From: Acidobacteriota bacterium
GTDB lineage: Bacteria > Acidobacteriota > Aminicenantia > UBA2199
Length of the DNA stretch: 36,104 bases
Direction: 5' to 3'
NCBI GenBank assembly: GCA_030837085.1
Contig: JAUPLE010000969.1
Location: forward strand, 1 to 36,104
Notes under the pieces: generated by a model
What the model was told of the DNA's origin: nothing
Seen by the model: only the letters and a program-made list of their open reading frames with translations
Databases searched by the model: none
Program-made: the position numbers and the translations under genes
Part shown: positions 1 through 6,892 of the stretch, one piece after another
Position numbering within the stretch: position 1 is the stretch's first letter
Layout: each line of letters opens with the position of its first letter

Positions 1-1464
1 AATGTACCATTGGCAGAAATATTCAAAACTCCCACAATCCTGGGATTATCAAGTTTTATTACAGCATCGGTCAAAGAGAGGTATATTTCGATAGAGCCCG
101 TTGAAAAGAAAGAATATTATGACTTGTCTTTTGCCCAAAGAAGATTATATATCCTGGATAAAACAGAAACATCCATCGATACGGCATATAACCTCCCCGA
201 GGTAATGTTAGTCGAAGGAGAACTTGATATACAGCGCTTTGAAGATACCTTTAATAAGTTACTAAAAAGGTATGACAGCTTTCGAACTTCCTTTGATATC
301 AAAAACGGAAAGCCAGTTCAGGTAATTCATCGTAATGTTGCCTTTGAAATTACATACATCTCAGCGGAAGACCAACTCCCAATAAGTGAATCGTTAAATC
401 AAACGATAAAAAACTTTATAAGACCTTTTGATTTGAGTAAAGCGCCGCTGCTAAGGACTGCAGTTGTCCATTTAAGCAGAAGAGAACATTTTTTGTTGTT
501 CGACATGCATCATATAATCGCAGATGGTGTTTCAATGGGCATTCTAGTTCGGAATTTTGTGAATTTATATGAAGGAAATAAATTACCTGCGTTAAAATTG
601 CAATATATAGATTTCGCAGGATGGCAAAATAAAATGTTTAAATGCGGACAAATGAAAAAGCAGGAAGAGTATTGGCTGAAAAAATTTAACGGGGATATCC
701 CAGTTTTGAATATGCCAACTGATTATCCCCGGCAATTGGAGAAAAGTTTTGCGGGAAATATTGTGACAACTGAAATCGATATACCATTAACGGATAAAAT
801 AAAAACGGTAATTTTGGAAACAGGAAATACTTTATATATCGTTTTATTGACAGTTTTAAATATATTATTATCCAAATATACAGGACAGGATGATATTATC
901 GTCGGATGCCCTACGGCCGGGAGAAATCACGAAGATTTAGAAAATATTATCGGTATGTTTGTAAATACATTAGCAATGAGGAATTATCTTCGAAGAGGAA
1001 TGACTGCCGGTGATTTTCTGGCAGAGGTGAAAAAAAATGCTTTGCAGGCTTTTGAAAACCAGGATTATCCATTCGAAGAATTGGTTAGTCAACTGAAGAT
1101 CGTCCAAAATCATACTCGAAATCCTTTATTTGATATATTGTTTGTATCTGAAAAGCTGGATATCCCGAAATTGGAGCTTGAAGATTTAACGTTTACACCT
1201 TATCAATTTGAATACAAAATATCTCATATGGACTTGGTATTTTATATCAAGGAAATTGAAGGGAAAATAGAATTGAAATTGGAATACGCGACAGCTTTGT
1301 TTAAGAAGCCGGGAGTGGCGGGCATGTTGAAACATTATCTGGAGATTCTTGAACAAGTGATTGATAATGTAAATATCAAATTAGAGGAGATCAAAATAAG
1401 CCATGAGTTTCTGGCGCCGCAGTCCAATATACTTAAGGAAAACCAGGATGGGTTTGGGTTTTGA
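1..1464 (+). CDS. NRPS C-terminal fragment: T (end)-C; 5' truncated
   Basis: The reading frame is open from the first base, so the true start lies upstream; the TTG at 10 is inside a domain. The first ~20 residues (VPLAEIFKTPTI) are the last helices of a peptidyl carrier (T) domain. A complete condensation (C) domain follows from about nt 85, with the opening pattern YYDLSFAQRRLY, the catalytic HHIIADG (second His codon at 511-513), and the later motifs VGCPTAGR, IGMFVNTLAMR and NQDYPFEEL. C domains join the donor peptide on the upstream T to the amino acid on the downstream T. All canonical catalytic residues are present, so it is probably active. The protein stops straight after the C domain (EIKISHEFL) with a short tail ending GFGF, a pattern shared with the two other C-terminal C proteins here. 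Its partner is presumably the next gene, 49 bp downstream. Confidence 0.93.
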   Translation, partial: NVPLAEIFKTPTILGLSSFITASVKERYISIEPVEKKEYYDLSFAQRRLYILDKTETSIDTAYNLPEVMLVEGELDIQRFEDTFNKLLKRYDSFRTSFDIKNGKPVQVIHRNVAFEITYISAEDQLPISESLNQTIKNFIRPFDLSKAPLLRTAVVHLSRREHFLLFDMHHIIADGVSMGILVRNFVNLYEGNKLPALKLQYIDFAGWQNKMFKCGQMKKQEEYWLKKFNGDIPVLNMPTDYPRQLEKSFAGNIVTTEIDIPLTDKIKTVILETGNTLYIVLLTVLNILLSKYTGQDDIIVGCPTAGRNHEDLENIIGMFVNTLAMRNYLRRGMTAGDFLAEVKKNALQAFENQDYPFEELVSQLKIVQNHTRNPLFDILFVSEKLDIPKLELEDLTFTPYQFEYKISHMDLVFYIKEIEGKIELKLEYATALFKKPGVAGMLKHYLEILEQVIDNVNIKLEEIKISHEFLAPQSNILKENQDGFGF

Positions 1465-1513: not shown

Positions 1514-4500
1514 ATGAAAAATGAGATTGATAATATAAAGACAGCTGCAGCAGCAGAACAATTCACCAGGGAACGGAATTATTGGCTGAATCGATTCGCC
1601 GATGAATTTGAGAAAACTTATTTTCCATATGATTTCCTGCATACAGGAGTTCACGGAGTTTACCCGAATGAACGAAAGATGGAATCGGTAAAATTTAGTT
1701 TTCCAGGGGACCTTTCTTCACGGTTGATTAAGCTGAGTAACCGTTTCGATCCCCGATTACATGTGATATTGGTGACGGGGTTAATATTAATACTTCATAA
1801 ATATACGGGCAATGGCGATATCATTGTCGGCGCTCCTATTTATATACAGGATAAAGAAGGAGAATTGATTAATACCGTACTAGCACTAAGAAATCGATTG
1901 GAAAACGAGATGACTTTTAAACAGCTTTTATTGCAAGTCAATGAAACTATTGTCGAAGCTGTGGATCATCAAAATTACCCGGTTGAACGGTTGGTACAGA
2001 AGTTAAATTTCCCGGGAAAAAGCAGCGGCTTTCCATTATTTGATGCGGCGATTTTGCTGGGGAATTGCCATAATGAGAAATACCTGGACCATATAAATCA
2101 TAATATGACATTTTCTTTACTTAGAATTGCTGAAGAGATTGAAGGTAAGCTTAAATACAATTCATTATTGTACAGTAAAGCCACTAGCCAACGGATAATC
2201 AAACATTTAATCCATCTCCTCGAACAAGCAGTTTTTAGAGTTGATACCCCAATCGCCGATATTGACGTATTGCCTGCCGATGAGAAACACAAACTATTGG
2301 TGGAATTTAATAATAATACCCAAGTTGAATACCCCCGGCAAAAAACCATTCAGCAATTATTTGAAGAACAAGTAGAACGAACGCCGGATCACACTGCCGT
2401 TTTTGGTCAAACGGTCCAGTCGGTCAGTTTAACTTATCGAAAATTAAATGAGCAGTCAAATCAATTGGCGCGAATGTTAATAAAAAAAGGCGTTAGACAA
2501 GAATCAGTCGTTGGGATTATGATAGACCCCTCACTGGAAATGGTGATTGGATTGATCGCCATATTAAAAGCCGGCGGTGCTTATTTACCGATTGATCCCG
2601 GCCTGCCTCCAAATCGCGTGCTTTTCATGTTGAATAATTCAGGAGCATTGGTGGTATTGACCGATAGTCATTCAATGAAGGATATATCTTTCACCCAATT
2701 TCAAAGGTTTGAAGAAAATAAAGATATTCCTATTCACATGACAGCCCCACGTCCCCCTATAGCCGAATTTGGGATCCTCCCGGCCCCGGATCGTTCCCAT
2801 ATTAACCTGCTCAACTACAAAAACAAGATCGGTATGGCCAGTGTGACCAATTGTATCTCCATTCAAACGACCCGCGGCTGCCCTTATGAATGTCTCTATT
2901 GCCATAAAATATGGTCTAAAAAACATGTTCACCGGGATGCGGAAAGTATTTATGGTGAAATCAACTATTTTTATAAAAATGGAGTTACTAACTTCGCTAT
3001 TATTGATGATTGTTTTAATCTTAATACACGGGAGAGCAGCAAGTTATTTGAACTGCTCATTAAAAACAAATTAAAAATCCAGTTATTTTTTCCCAATGGT
3101 TTACGGGGAGATATCATGACTCCGGGTTATATTGATTTGATGGTGGAAGCAGGTACGCGTGGTATTAATCTATCATTGGAGACAGCATCGCCCAGGCTGC
3201 AAAAACTGCTCAAGAAAAATTTGAACCTGGACAAATTTAAAGAAGTAGTGAATTACATTGCCGCAGCCCATTCTAATATTATCCTTGAAATGGCCACCAT
3301 GCACGGATTCCCGTCGGAAACAGAAGAAGAAGCCATGATGACTCTCAATTTTATCAAAGATATTAAATGGCTGCATTTCCCATATATTCATATATTAAAA
3401 ATATTTCCCAATACTGAAATGGAAGCGTTTGCACTAGAACAAGGCGTATCAAAACAAGACATCATGCAGTCAAAAAATCGCGCTTTCCATGAGTTACCCG
3501 AGACACTACCGTTCCCTAAAAGTTTTACCCGCAAATACCAGGCCGGATTCTTAAATGAATATTTCCTGGCGAAAGAAAGACTAAAAAATGTATTACCGGT
3601 GCAAATGAATATCTTAAGCGAAGCCGCATTAACACAGAAATACAATGCTTACCTCCCAGTTGAAATCAAATCCATTCGAGATGTGATCGAGTTTTCCGGT
3701 GTGGAAGGAGTGGAAATCCCGGTTGATTATGGTCGAGAGGAAAACAGACTCTCCATATTCGATCGGTTCCCGGTAAATCGCACTTTAATACAGGGGGCGC
3801 GACGTATATTATTCTTGGATCTATCCCAACATTTCAGCTCCCACCAAATGCTTTATCGTGTGGTCGAACAACCGCTGGGAGCCATGTACCTCCTGACTTA
3901 CCTTAAACAACAATTTGGAGACCGTATCGATGGAAGAATTTATAAATCCGGCAATGATTTCGACAATTTTGAAGAACTGAGAAAGATCGTTCACGATTTT
4001 CAACCGCAACTGATTGGGATTCGCACATTAACGTTTTTTAAAGATTTTTTCCATGAAACAGCAGCGTTGATCCGACACTGGGGAATTACATGCCCGATTA
4101 TAACCGGGGGCCCCTACGCATCCAGTGATTATGATACTATATTAAAAGATAAAAATATCGACTTGGTGGTTTTGGGTGAAGGCGAATATACACTGGTTGA
4201 ATTGATAACAGAAATGATGAAAAATGATTTCAAACTGCCGCCTTCCTCTGTTATGGCCGGTATAAAAGGTATTGTTTATGCCGAAAAAGTCTATGCTGAG
4301 AATTTTAGTATTAATGAAATTCAGCGCCAGGTAATTTTAATGGATGGATATGACCATATCCTCTCTGGCCAATCCTGCCAAAACCCGGAATCCGTTGCCA
4401 GTGGAAATAATCTTGCCTATGTCATGTATACCTCTGGCACAACGGGAATGCCCAAAGGTGTAATGGTAGAGCACCAGCAAGTCAACAATTGTATTCATTG

Positions 4501-6892
4501 GATGCAGGAAAAGTTTCAACTAACAAATAAAGATTCGATTGCCCAGCGTACCAATTTAATGTTTGACCCTTCGGTTTGGGAAATCTTTTGGCCGTTATAT
4601 GTCGGCGCAAAAGTAAAACTTTTAACCCGGCAGCAAGGGCGCGACGCGGAGTATTTACTCCATTTAATGGCAGATGATCGCAATGTAACCGTACTTTATT
4701 GCCCATCGCCGTTATTGACGGCAATAACGTACTTACTAAACCAGGCCGATAAGAAATCCCGGTTAAAATTAACATGGCTCATTATTGGTGCGGAATCCAT
4801 CCGGCCTGAAGTAATAAAAGATTTTTATTCTTACTACGAAGGGAAAATCGTTAACACCTATGGCCCCACGGAAGGCACCATAAACAACACCTATTATGAT
4901 ATCCACCGGTCGGATAAGTGTTCCATTGTTCCTATCGGAAAGCCAGTTGCCAATAATCAAATATATATCCTTTCGCCGGATATGAAACCCCAGCCAATGA
5001 TGGTGGCTGGGGAAATCCATATCGGGGGTGACAGCGTTGCCAGGGGGTATATTAATAATAGGGAGAAAACAGACCTATATTTTATTGCCAATCCGTTTGG
5101 GGAAGGGAAATTATATAAAACCGGCGATATCGGTAGATGGTGGCCTGATGGTGTAATCGAAATCATGGGCCGGGTGGATGAACAAATAAAGATCAGGGGC
5201 TACCGAATGGAACCCGGGGAAATACGGTCTGCCCTGCTAGGTCATAAGGCCATTAAGGATTGTATCATTACCGTTGTCGATAATAAGGAGTCGGAATCGC
5301 ATAACGAAGATTTCAAGACCTGTAAATCTTGCGGCATCACAACCCAATATCCCAGGGTAACCATTAATGATGATAACCTTTGCGAAATATGCAAAGAGAT
5401 ATTGAAATACCAATCGACTCTTCAAGCATATTTTAAAACCCTGGGGGAATTGGAGCAAACCATTCGAAATCTTAACAAAACAAAAACCGGCATATACGAT
5501 TGCCTTTTGTTATACAGCGGCGGCCGTGGGGCCGCGAATGCACTTTATAAATTGCATGACATGGGTTTCAAAATACTAACCGCAACCTATGATAATGGTT
5601 ACATGGGAAAAGCAGATATTGCCAATATAAAAATGATTACGTCCAAATTGAATGTGGATCATGTCATATTGACCCATAAAAACACCGACAACATACTCAG
5701 AGAAAGTTTGAAAACCGCCCATACGGTTTGCCGGGGGTGTTTTCTTACATCATCTTCCCTGGCTGCTGAATATGCCTATAAGAACAGCATTAACGTGGTG
5801 GTGGGTGCTACCTTGTCCCGCGGCCAAATTATCGATAGTAAATTGTTTATGTTCCTTCAGCAGGGAATTACCGATATAAATGAATTTGAGGCAACAGTCT
5901 CCAGGTTCCAGCAGGATATTCCTAAAATAGAGAAATCCTATTTTGACTTAATCGATATCGAGGCTGTGAAAGATGGAAGTGTGCATAAAAAAGTAACCTC
6001 ATTGGATTTTTACCGTTATTGCGAAATGACCAATGAAGAAATGATTTCTTACTTAAATGAAAGAGACCCTTATTGGAAAACCAGGAAATCATATGCTGTA
6101 TATTCCACCAATTGCCCTATCAAGCAAATTGGGGATTACGCACATTTGCAAGAAAGAGGATTTCATTTTTATGGACCACCTACCAGTTGGGAAAAACGCT
6201 TGGGGCATTTGGCGTTAAAAAATATCAAAGAAGACCTGGAGTGCCGTATGACGCCCAAGGGCTTCGCTAATTTCTTAAAGCGCGTCCAATATGACCGTAC
6301 CGAAAAAGAAAACAAAACGGATAAATATTTATGCGCCTATTTTATTCCCGACAAGCCTTCCACGGAAGGCGAATATTCAGCATCCGAATTAAGAAATTAT
6401 TTATTACAAACATTGCCCGAGTATATGATCCCCCATTATTTCGTTCCAATAGAGAAAATTCCTTTGACTACCAATGGGAAAGTGGATAGAAAAGCATTGC
6501 CATCCCCGAAATTATCCCGGTTAAAATTGGACGTGACCTATGTCGCCCCGGCTACCCAATTGGAAAAAACCATTTCGGAAACCTGGAAAGAATTACTGGG
6601 TGTGGATAGGGTAGGCGTTCAGGATAATTTTTTTGACCTGGGCGGAAATTCACTCAATATCGTTATGATGGAACATAAATTAAAAGAAGCCCTTAATATA
6701 GATATCCCGGTGGTAACACTGTTTACTTATCCCACCATTAGTTCTTTGACAAAGTACCTTGAGGAAGAAAAAAATCGGGAGACGATCTCTGCGTCGCCTG
6801 CTTCTGCCGGTAAAGCAGATCGGTCTATTGTAATTAATGAGGGTAAAAATATGATGAAACGCACCTTAGAAAAAATTGAGCAAAGGAAATAA
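1514..6892 (+). CDS. NRPS ½C-A-T with radical SAM/B12 and PP-loop units inserted in the A domain
   Basis: 1792 aa, far above the usual size of a single A-T module. Residues ~18-265 are only the C-terminal lobe of a C domain (RNYWLNRF, VGAPIYIQ, INTVLALRNR, HQNYPVERL); the HHxxxDG lobe is absent. The A domain has A1 at ~306, A2 LKAGGAYLPIDP at ~351, A3 LAYVMYTSGTTG at 967, A4 FDPSVWE at 1017, A5 NTYGPTE at ~1114, A7 YKTGDI at ~1201, A8 at 1219-1236, A9 LPEYMIP at ~1634 and A10 NGKVDR at 1654. About 570 extra residues lie between A2 and A3 and about 340 between A8 and A9 (see separate entries). The specificity code read by hand is D-P-W-Y-I-G-T-I-N-K; I cannot match it to a substrate. T has its phosphopantetheine Ser at 1713 (LGGNSL). 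A charged C-terminal helix probably docks to the next PKS. ATG 1514 is chosen because GGAG lies 7 nt upstream. Confidence 0.93.
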   Translation: MKNEIDNIKTAAAAEQFTRERNYWLNRFADEFEKTYFPYDFLHTGVHGVYPNERKMESVKFSFPGDLSSRLIKLSNRFDPRLHVILVTGLILILHKYTGNGDIIVGAPIYIQDKEGELINTVLALRNRLENEMTFKQLLLQVNETIVEAVDHQNYPVERLVQKLNFPGKSSGFPLFDAAILLGNCHNEKYLDHINHNMTFSLLRIAEEIEGKLKYNSLLYSKATSQRIIKHLIHLLEQAVFRVDTPIADIDVLPADEKHKLLVEFNNNTQVEYPRQKTIQQLFEEQVERTPDHTAVFGQTVQSVSLTYRKLNEQSNQLARMLIKKGVRQESVVGIMIDPSLEMVIGLIAILKAGGAYLPIDPGLPPNRVLFMLNNSGALVVLTDSHSMKDISFTQFQRFEENKDIPIHMTAPRPPIAEFGILPAPDRSHINLLNYKNKIGMASVTNCISIQTTRGCPYECLYCHKIWSKKHVHRDAESIYGEINYFYKNGVTNFAIIDDCFNLNTRESSKLFELLIKNKLKIQLFFPNGLRGDIMTPGYIDLMVEAGTRGINLSLETASPRLQKLLKKNLNLDKFKEVVNYIAAAHSNIILEMATMHGFPSETEEEAMMTLNFIKDIKWLHFPYIHILKIFPNTEMEAFALEQGVSKQDIMQSKNRAFHELPETLPFPKSFTRKYQAGFLNEYFLAKERLKNVLPVQMNILSEAALTQKYNAYLPVEIKSIRDVIEFSGVEGVEIPVDYGREENRLSIFDRFPVNRTLIQGARRILFLDLSQHFSSHQMLYRVVEQPLGAMYLLTYLKQQFGDRIDGRIYKSGNDFDNFEELRKIVHDFQPQLIGIRTLTFFKDFFHETAALIRHWGITCPIITGGPYASSDYDTILKDKNIDLVVLGEGEYTLVELITEMMKNDFKLPPSSVMAGIKGIVYAEKVYAENFSINEIQRQVILMDGYDHILSGQSCQNPESVASGNNLAYVMYTSGTTGMPKGVMVEHQQVNNCIHWMQEKFQLTNKDSIAQRTNLMFDPSVWEIFWPLYVGAKVKLLTRQQGRDAEYLLHLMADDRNVTVLYCPSPLLTAITYLLNQADKKSRLKLTWLIIGAESIRPEVIKDFYSYYEGKIVNTYGPTEGTINNTYYDIHRSDKCSIVPIGKPVANNQIYILSPDMKPQPMMVAGEIHIGGDSVARGYINNREKTDLYFIANPFGEGKLYKTGDIGRWWPDGVIEIMGRVDEQIKIRGYRMEPGEIRSALLGHKAIKDCIITVVDNKESESHNEDFKTCKSCGITTQYPRVTINDDNLCEICKEILKYQSTLQAYFKTLGELEQTIRNLNKTKTGIYDCLLLYSGGRGAANALYKLHDMGFKILTATYDNGYMGKADIANIKMITSKLNVDHVILTHKNTDNILRESLKTAHTVCRGCFLTSSSLAAEYAYKNSINVVVGATLSRGQIIDSKLFMFLQQGITDINEFEATVSRFQQDIPKIEKSYFDLIDIEAVKDGSVHKKVTSLDFYRYCEMTNEEMISYLNERDPYWKTRKSYAVYSTNCPIKQIGDYAHLQERGFHFYGPPTSWEKRLGHLALKNIKEDLECRMTPKGFANFLKRVQYDRTEKENKTDKYLCAYFIPDKPSTEGEYSASELRNYLLQTLPEYMIPHYFVPIEKIPLTTNGKVDRKALPSPKLSRLKLDVTYVAPATQLEKTISETWKELLGVDRVGVQDNFFDLGGNSLNIVMMEHKLKEALNIDIPVVTLFTYPTISSLTKYLEEEKNRETISASPASAGKADRSIVINEGKNMMKRTLEKIEQRK
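2670..4386 (+). other. Radical SAM + B12-binding insertion between A2 and A3
   Basis: Residues ~386-958 of the gene 2 protein. The 4Fe-4S motif C456-x3-C460-x2-C463 (GCPYECLYC) sits in the usual TTRGCP context, followed by typical radical SAM strands (FAIIDDCFNLN, GINLSLETASPR, HGFPSETEEEAM). From ~763 a cobalamin-binding Rossmann-like domain follows: RRILFLDLS, PLGAMYLLTYL, PQLIGIRTL, PIITGGPYAS, VVLGEGEYTLVEL. Family knowledge: class B radical SAM enzymes use B12 to methylate unactivated carbon or phosphorus, or to drive ring chemistry. Here B12 follows the radical SAM core, the reverse of the usual order. Inference: it modifies the amino acid activated or tethered by this module. Flanking A-domain sequence resumes cleanly, so this is a true insertion and not a gene fusion at an end. 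Confidence 0.88.
5297..6313 (+). other. Zinc-ribbon/PP-loop (N-acetyl sugar amidotransferase-like) insertion between A8 and A9
   Basis: Residues ~1262-1600 of the gene 2 protein. It opens with a C1270-x2-C1273 ... C1290-x2-C1293 ribbon (CKSCG, CEICK), then YDCLLLYSGGRGAANALY, where a PP-loop ATPase would read SGGxDS. The following strands (ILTATYDNGYM, LNVDHVILTH), C1406-RG-C1409 and VVGATLSRGQ resemble the WbpG/PseA-type amidotransferase and ATP-pyrophosphatase superfamily. The PP-loop Asp and last Ser are replaced by Gly1339 and Ala1340, so ATP pyrophosphatase chemistry may be lost or altered. The A domain resumes at DKYLCAYFIPDK (~1603). Superfamily assignment is moderately firm; function is unknown. 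Confidence 0.72.
6882..6887 (+). promoter_or_regulatory. Ribosome binding site fixing the gene 3 start
   Basis: AAAGGA lies inside the last codons of gene 2, 6 nt before ATG 6894. This favours ATG 6894 over the in-frame TTG at 6876, which would overlap gene 2 by 17 bp and has no comparable purine-rich site. Confidence 0.6.

Follow-up and report, generated by a model that had tools for sequence, protein, structure and literature searches.

The NRPS gene at positions 1514 to 6892 of the window (the whole stretch of DNA that was analysed, 36,104 nucleotides from an Acidobacteriota bacterium) encodes an A domain that is interrupted between its motifs A2 and A3. In the reading that we consider rather probable, the insert is a permuted radical SAM-B12 enzyme of class 1 type, cut in the linker between its two domains, which would serve as an in-line tailoring domain, probably cobalamin-dependent and most likely a C-methylase. 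The gene is part of a hybrid NRPS-PKS cluster, in which the next ORFs encode KS, AT, KR, DH, ACP, C, A and PCP domains, and its own layout is the following, with the basis of each assignment in brackets.

1514 to 6892, + strand: NRPS ORF of 1792 aa, made of half a C domain, an A domain with two inserts, and a PCP.
1538 to 2299, + strand: C-terminal half of a condensation domain (PF00668 at aa 9-262, profile positions 183-456 of 456).
2324 to 2677, + strand: N-terminal part of the host A domain, including A1-A2 (sequence; the model pairs this part and the later core with whole A domains).
2732 to 2818, + strand: second half of the canonical B12-radical SAM linker (strand at aa 407-409, RPPI...LPAPDRS...LLNY), now the N-terminus of the insert (canonical profile from 166/171; models).
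2861 to 3355, + strand: radical SAM core, with the CxxxCxxC codons at 2879-2902 (PF04055 at aa 450-614, E 9.2e-19; model matched by AprD4, 6fd2).
3356 to 3763, + strand: helical region downstream of the radical SAM core (helices in the model).
3794 to 4291, + strand: B12-binding domain of Rossmann type, with PF02310 at 3866-4204, aa 785-897 (E 6.7e-10; strands in the model).
4271 to 4282, + strand: first half of the linker with the GIVY strand, aa 920-923, closing the B12 domain (model).
4328 to 5050, + strand: core of the host A domain after the insert, with A3 YTSGTTGMPKG (4427-4459) and A4/A5 (PF00501 at aa 939-1179).
5315 to 6172, + strand: second insert, after A8 (insert 5306-6286), a WbuX-like PP-loop domain with C-x2-C pairs and a degenerate SGGRGA (TIGR03573, E 3e-20; alignment).
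6317 to 6481, + strand: end of the C-terminal subdomain of the A domain, on the A10 side (PF13193, E 0.00031, below its cut-off).
6569 to 6760, + strand: PCP (PF00550 at aa 1686-1749, E 1.2e-14).

According to Pfam, the AMP-binding match of this ORF is split into two stretches and the domains follow one another as N-terminal part of the A domain, radical SAM, B12 and A-domain core, which confirms on the 1792-aa ORF what a preliminary description had noticed, namely that the radical SAM domain stands ahead of the B12 domain, in reverse of the canonical order. The cysteines of the CxxxCxxC motif are located at aa 456, 460 and 463, and PLG, GGP and GEGE are the conserved motifs of the B12 part in the family alignment. 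The domain that follows had been described as B12-binding and as starting at about residue 763; it is indeed of the B12-binding type by its PF02310 match, and its first Rossmann strand opens at aa 763 in the model. In several NRPS proteins of the family the condensation domain at the start is represented solely by its C-terminal half (1514-2299 in the window; the ORFs of L012).

The predicted model of the insert alone (pLDDT 88.4, pTM 0.86) places the strands of the B12 part at model residues 364-370, 406-413, 434-438, 463-466 and 485-487, followed by one at 521-524. The top structural match of the radical SAM part is AprD4 (6fd2; Z 18.8, 270 residues, rmsd 3.1); MgmA, MiaB, TsrM and OxsB are further fold matches, and Mmp10 appears among the listed matches through its radical SAM part (VIA-align, model residues 47 to 317), in a list that spans mainly model residues 14-354 and barely covers the B12 domain. 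When the A domain and the insert are modelled together (995 aa; pLDDT 86.6, pTM 0.85), the model matches the whole A domain 5n81 (Z 53.7, 393 aligned, rmsd 1.6, range 3 to 954) and also the interrupted A domain of TioS (5wmm, Z 48.8), and the A-domain fold is predicted to close around the insert. The site of insertion does not vary: where both motifs were located, in 38 of 64 rows, the insert follows A2 after 45-52 aa and is itself followed by A3 after another 45-84 aa.

The two ends of the insert carry what is left of one linker. The stretch LPAPDRS...NLLNY at its start, previously called linker-like, aligns to the second half of the canonical linker. At the other end a second linker (IKGIVYAEKV...ILMDGYD) had been proposed, and this holds in part: the GIVY strand (aa 920-923) is part of the B12 half, but the QVIL strand (aa 939-942) is on the host side, and ILMDGYD as a B12 linker is ruled out by the resumed PF00501 match and by the model of the A domain with its insert. 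In class 1 enzymes a hairpin comes after the B12 fold, as described in the available part of PMC13331322, and the short strand that the models show at each end of the insert (aa 407-409 and 920-923) is taken to be one of the two strands of this hairpin.

To examine the order of the two halves, a profile was built from 51 canonical-order B12-radical SAM proteins, mostly from one phylum and with at least three identical pairs among them (L137/L163, L135/L169 and L145/L166). Members of the family in their native order match this profile as two pieces: in the native matches inspected the B12 piece ends at 160/161 and the radical SAM piece starts at 170/171, its starts in the tabulated matches ranging over 162-178, and the break costs only about ten profile positions. 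When the B12 half of each trimmed member is moved in front of its radical SAM half, 64 of 64 members align with the profile colinearly, as a single domain that spans it, and the score rises by 64.6-114.3 bits (mean 85.7); the cuts were placed at fixed alignment columns, with boundaries chosen by the analyst. In the untrimmed rotation 63 of the 64 rows gain, by 33 bits on average (1.5 bits in the window, more than 50 bits in 26 of 64, and 0-5 bits in many); the gain is weaker because A-domain residues from both ends fall within the joined linker. The mirror control, in which each canonical protein was scored with a profile built without it, gave lower scores for the half-swapped form in 51 of 51 proteins (mean loss 185 bits, smallest 0.2). 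Moreover, the 51 canonical proteins fall in a similar order whichever half provides the scores (Spearman 0.66), and five are shared among the top ten of each. Taken together, the rotation, the mirror control and the agreement of the half scores place the break within the B12-radical SAM linker, and they support reading the order as a true circular permutation at that linker, as first suggested, with both linker halves retained.

The arrangement is not confined to one gene. The genome of the window has eight loci of this kind, the CxxxCxxC motif is present in all of them, and the other seven, which share the arrangement, are 49-54% identical to the window's, so it is not a product of chance; one of them, at the edge of contig C620, runs on into C342 (overlapping protein sequences). 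Among 84,980 species genomes scanned there were 220 pattern matches, which yielded 105 relatives. Chance or misassembly is ruled out by the eight loci together with these relatives. The best 80 of the 105 (77 loci) were examined, and by record title they include Aminicenantes, Bacillota, Bacteroidales, Deltaproteobacteria/Desulfuromonadaceae/Desulfosediminicola, Thermoflexales, Elusimicrobia, Margulisbacteria, Spirochaetales and Pelagibacteraceae, many of them MAGs. The distribution is patchy: seven of 34 genomes of the window's family are positive, one of these has 34 matches (fragments among them), and among 297 genomes drawn from the phylum no positive was found besides the window's own. 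Within the tree rows, the insert nearest to that of the window belongs to a Candidatus Aminicenantes MAG and is 78% identical to it across 514 columns.

The alignment of 64 members comprises the window and 63 of the 77 loci; seven loci were left out as incomplete sequences (L083, L084, L085, L088, L089, L092 and L093) and seven for their size (L056, L063, L064, L072, L079, L087 and L090). Fifty-seven of the 64 aligned members lie within NRPS ORFs (of at least 963 aa), and in 54 of these the A2 and/or the A3 motif adjoins the insert; in the remaining three (L034, L038 and L041) the NRPS sequence was recognised by eye. The other seven are free proteins of 550-583 aa with the order unchanged. Six of them belong to marine alphaproteobacteria (L076, L077, L078, L080, L081 and L082; five are Pelagibacter-type by title), and the seventh (L091) to [Clostridium] polysaccharolyticum. 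Pfam places radical SAM first and B12 second in L076, L082 and L091, all three free members scanned, and the B12 domain is C-terminal to the radical SAM domain in 71 of 71 permuted tree rows. In one Pelagibacter contig two permuted radical SAM-B12 genes are adjacent (L078, 666-2321 and 2355-4073).

Since free proteins have the same order, the order is not tied to insertion. In the sampled family the permutation is an ancestral trait, with no adaptation visible at the window locus. The proposal that the permutation had been selected for insertion into a loop accordingly lacks support: for the closest subfamily this order is the rule, being that of the seven free proteins and of every permuted row of the tree. 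A related possibility, which we regard as unlikely, is that insertion itself caused the permutation (the ends being joined for a loop) and that the free forms were excised afterwards. The permutation does place both ends at one hairpin, and the available tree, a quick one, has very long canonical branches, so the permuted family is not rooted; the clostridial free form also groups with the inserted forms, on a branch that is not starred. Against this, the free marine forms make up a separate clade (100, starred) and by eye carry no remnant of an A domain at their ends, and a second A domain in this genome contains a B12 domain in canonical order. The protein with this domain (L126, 194-4720, on contig C993) is an NRPS with PF02310 at aa 449-556 followed by CxxxCxxC near the start of the A domain; PF04055 was not reported in it at E <= 0.001. 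Still less probable is an independent fusion of a radical SAM protein with a B12 domain from elsewhere, in which no circular permutation would have taken place. Domain order by itself cannot discriminate this from a permutation, the canonical relatives are remote (no more than 27% identity within the genome), and the overlap between the best canonical matches of the two halves is limited to the five mentioned; however, a fusion has to account for two halves of one linker kept at the two ends, with a loss of about ten positions at the break, and for the similar ranking of the canonical proteins by both halves. A circular permutation at the linker is the reading adopted in what follows.

Among known enzymes, the closest comparison is with class 1 cobalamin radical SAM enzymes (TsrM, OxsB and TokK, with AprD4 and MgmA by fold or sequence), with which the insert shares the CxxxCxxC radical SAM core, a B12 domain of PF02310 type, for which five strands and then one more are predicted, and the same linker. 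It differs from them in that its B12 domain is C-terminal, the chain is cut in the linker, and the whole is lodged in an A domain; the sequence and model features that were tested fit class 1, with the sole exception of the order. Class 2 (Mmp10 and DUF512 proteins) also has its B12 domain behind the radical SAM domain, but this B12 domain is described as four-stranded in the accessible portion of PMC13331322. DUF512 has no match to the window ORF at E <= 1 in Pfam, and membership in class 2 is ruled out by the PF02310 type and the five strands in the model. The host resembles interrupted A domains of the a2-a3 type, such as TioN and MarQ, in the A2-A3 insertion site and in the fold closing around the insert, as far as these are covered in the available part of PMC11355689; it differs from them because the insert is a radical SAM-B12 enzyme instead of a classical SAM methyltransferase, and because the clade of the window has a second insert after A8. 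The auxiliary types that the consulted parts of PMC11355689 and PMC8949500 describe in interrupted A domains are methyltransferase, KR and monooxygenase/oxidase, and the window insert falls outside them. Discrete cobalamin radical SAM enzymes that serve NRPS products do exist, namely DscE (discodermin) and CysS (cystobactamid), but these are separate proteins, and CysS has the canonical order. A full-text search of the open-licence literature, which is partial, found neither an A domain interrupted by a radical SAM enzyme nor a permuted enzyme of this kind.

The second insert is present in the clade of the window (eight rows; 100, starred), where about 330 aa are inserted after A8 in seven of the eight rows; the contig of the eighth, L022, stops short of the site, and L184, which lacks its start, is an additional partial member. 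TIGR03573 (WbuX) matches this insert in all seven, with E 3e-20 in the window and 2e-27 at best, all below the cut-off. The likeness to WbuX, an N-acetyl sugar amidotransferase, extends over nearly the whole profile (in the window 2-291 of 344, at 72.9 bits where the cut-off is 203.2) and includes the C-x2-C pairs; the differences are the degenerate PP-loop and the location within an A domain. The SGGxDS motif is not kept in the clade, where it is replaced by SGGRGA (window), SGGKGS, NGGRGA, AGGRGA or ACERVA, and, judged from these sequences, the degenerate PP-loop is a mark of the clade. By eye, a WbuX-like domain with an intact SGGKDS follows A8 in A domains that have no radical SAM insert (L185 and L187), so the two inserts can occur apart; L186 has a methyltransferase-like stretch in its place. 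In the paralogue at L003, 1501-4629, a methyltransferase-like stretch after A8 was likewise seen by eye, together with the radical SAM-B12 insert.

As to the substrate, the nine code positions of the window A domain read D-P-W-Y-I-G-T-I-N. Labels could be given to the host codes of 34 of the 53 rows with a long enough core: seven of the window type (DPWYIGTIN and near), seven Thr-, seven Pro-, seven Ile- and three Asn-like, and three DVMN-GIIN, with amino-acid names (Thr, Ile, Pro, Asn) that we take to be textbook-like. Overall the inserts group by host code (11 changes as opposed to 21.8 when shuffled), with the Thr, Ile and Asn hosts scattered. Such diverse codes are as would be expected if the enzyme tailored diverse residues in line.

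Three further observations point to a working, B12-using tailoring domain. A clade of six members (L009 on C432, L014 on C424, L034, L038, L041 and L061; 99, starred), of which L009 and L014 are paralogues from the window's genome, has its host A shell eroded or absent and still retains the radical SAM-B12 part, cluster motif included, with an intact A domain before it and a PCP after it, which implies that this part is kept for its own sake. An uninterrupted A-PCP gene immediately precedes the free clostridial member. A BtuB-like TonB receptor (142 bits where the cut-off is 600) adjoins two free marine members (L076 and L080), a possible hint of cobalamin use in SAR11; by eye there is no BtuB-like neighbour at the other marine loci listed. 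DUF6580 proteins are found near three of the eight marine loci with listed ORFs (L076, L078 and L080). In the clostridial locus (L091, 5971-8951) the free permuted enzyme adjoins a B12-radical SAM gene of canonical order, both behind an NRPS gene.

In the mechanism that we propose, the host A domain would load its amino acid onto the downstream PCP, and the insert, with [4Fe-4S], SAM and cobalamin, would act in line on the PCP-bound amino acid, generating a carbon radical on it and most likely methylating it; in the clade of the window, the WbuX-like domain of the same A domain might act on the same residue. In a8-a9 and a2-a3 interrupted A domains the inserted methylase acts after the carrier protein has received the residue (PMC11355689, in the part available), DscE is a discrete cobalamin radical SAM enzyme that C-methylates an NRP (PMC12858407, in part), and CysS, also discrete, C-methylates a PCP-bound acid (PMC8992657, likewise in part). 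On this timing and these precedents rests our commitment to in-line radical C-methylation, which we estimate to be about as probable as all other radical reactions and those yet unnamed put together.

The main competitor, possible although clearly less probable, is an in-line radical enzyme that does not methylate and instead carries out a cyclisation, a dehydration, an epimerisation-like reaction or a carbon-carbon coupling. A non-methylating reaction is made possible by the rank of AprD4 at the top by fold, given that it is a diol dehydratase and not a methylase; the models of BchE, ApyD and PhpK are among the best family matches, and the Pro-, Thr- and Ile-like codes among the hosts are also in keeping with such a reaction. 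Nothing specific speaks against it, but C- or P-methylation is the commonest reaction among characterised cobalamin radical SAM relatives, according to the part of PMC13331322 that is accessible. That the insert is a decayed passenger without any catalytic role is very improbable: some host A domains are eroded, which implies ongoing decay in such assembly lines, but it is the host that decays and not the insert, and the cluster and B12 motifs persist even in members that are up to 60% different.

A 2025 review (PMC13331322, in its available part) gives Mmp10 as the only characterised cobalamin radical SAM enzyme with a C-terminal B12 domain, and that domain is of another type than the one in the window insert. 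We see an even chance that the family represents a third cobalamin radical SAM arrangement, a permuted class 1 fold that gave rise to a new type of interrupted A domain, in which radical chemistry, probably C-methylation, is performed in line on many amino acids, in anaerobes, with a nested amidotransferase-like domain added in one clade and a free form in marine alphaproteobacteria. Six of the family records, among the best 80 of 105, bear isolate strain names, which allows tests that are independent of metagenomes. If the permuted class 1 enzyme is confirmed, it would mean that the interface between the B12 and radical SAM domains tolerates a cut in the linker, and it would offer a clean test of the role of that linker. 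Likewise, an A domain with a radical enzyme of its own would bring unactivated carbons within the reach of in-line tailoring, and may find use in NRPS engineering.
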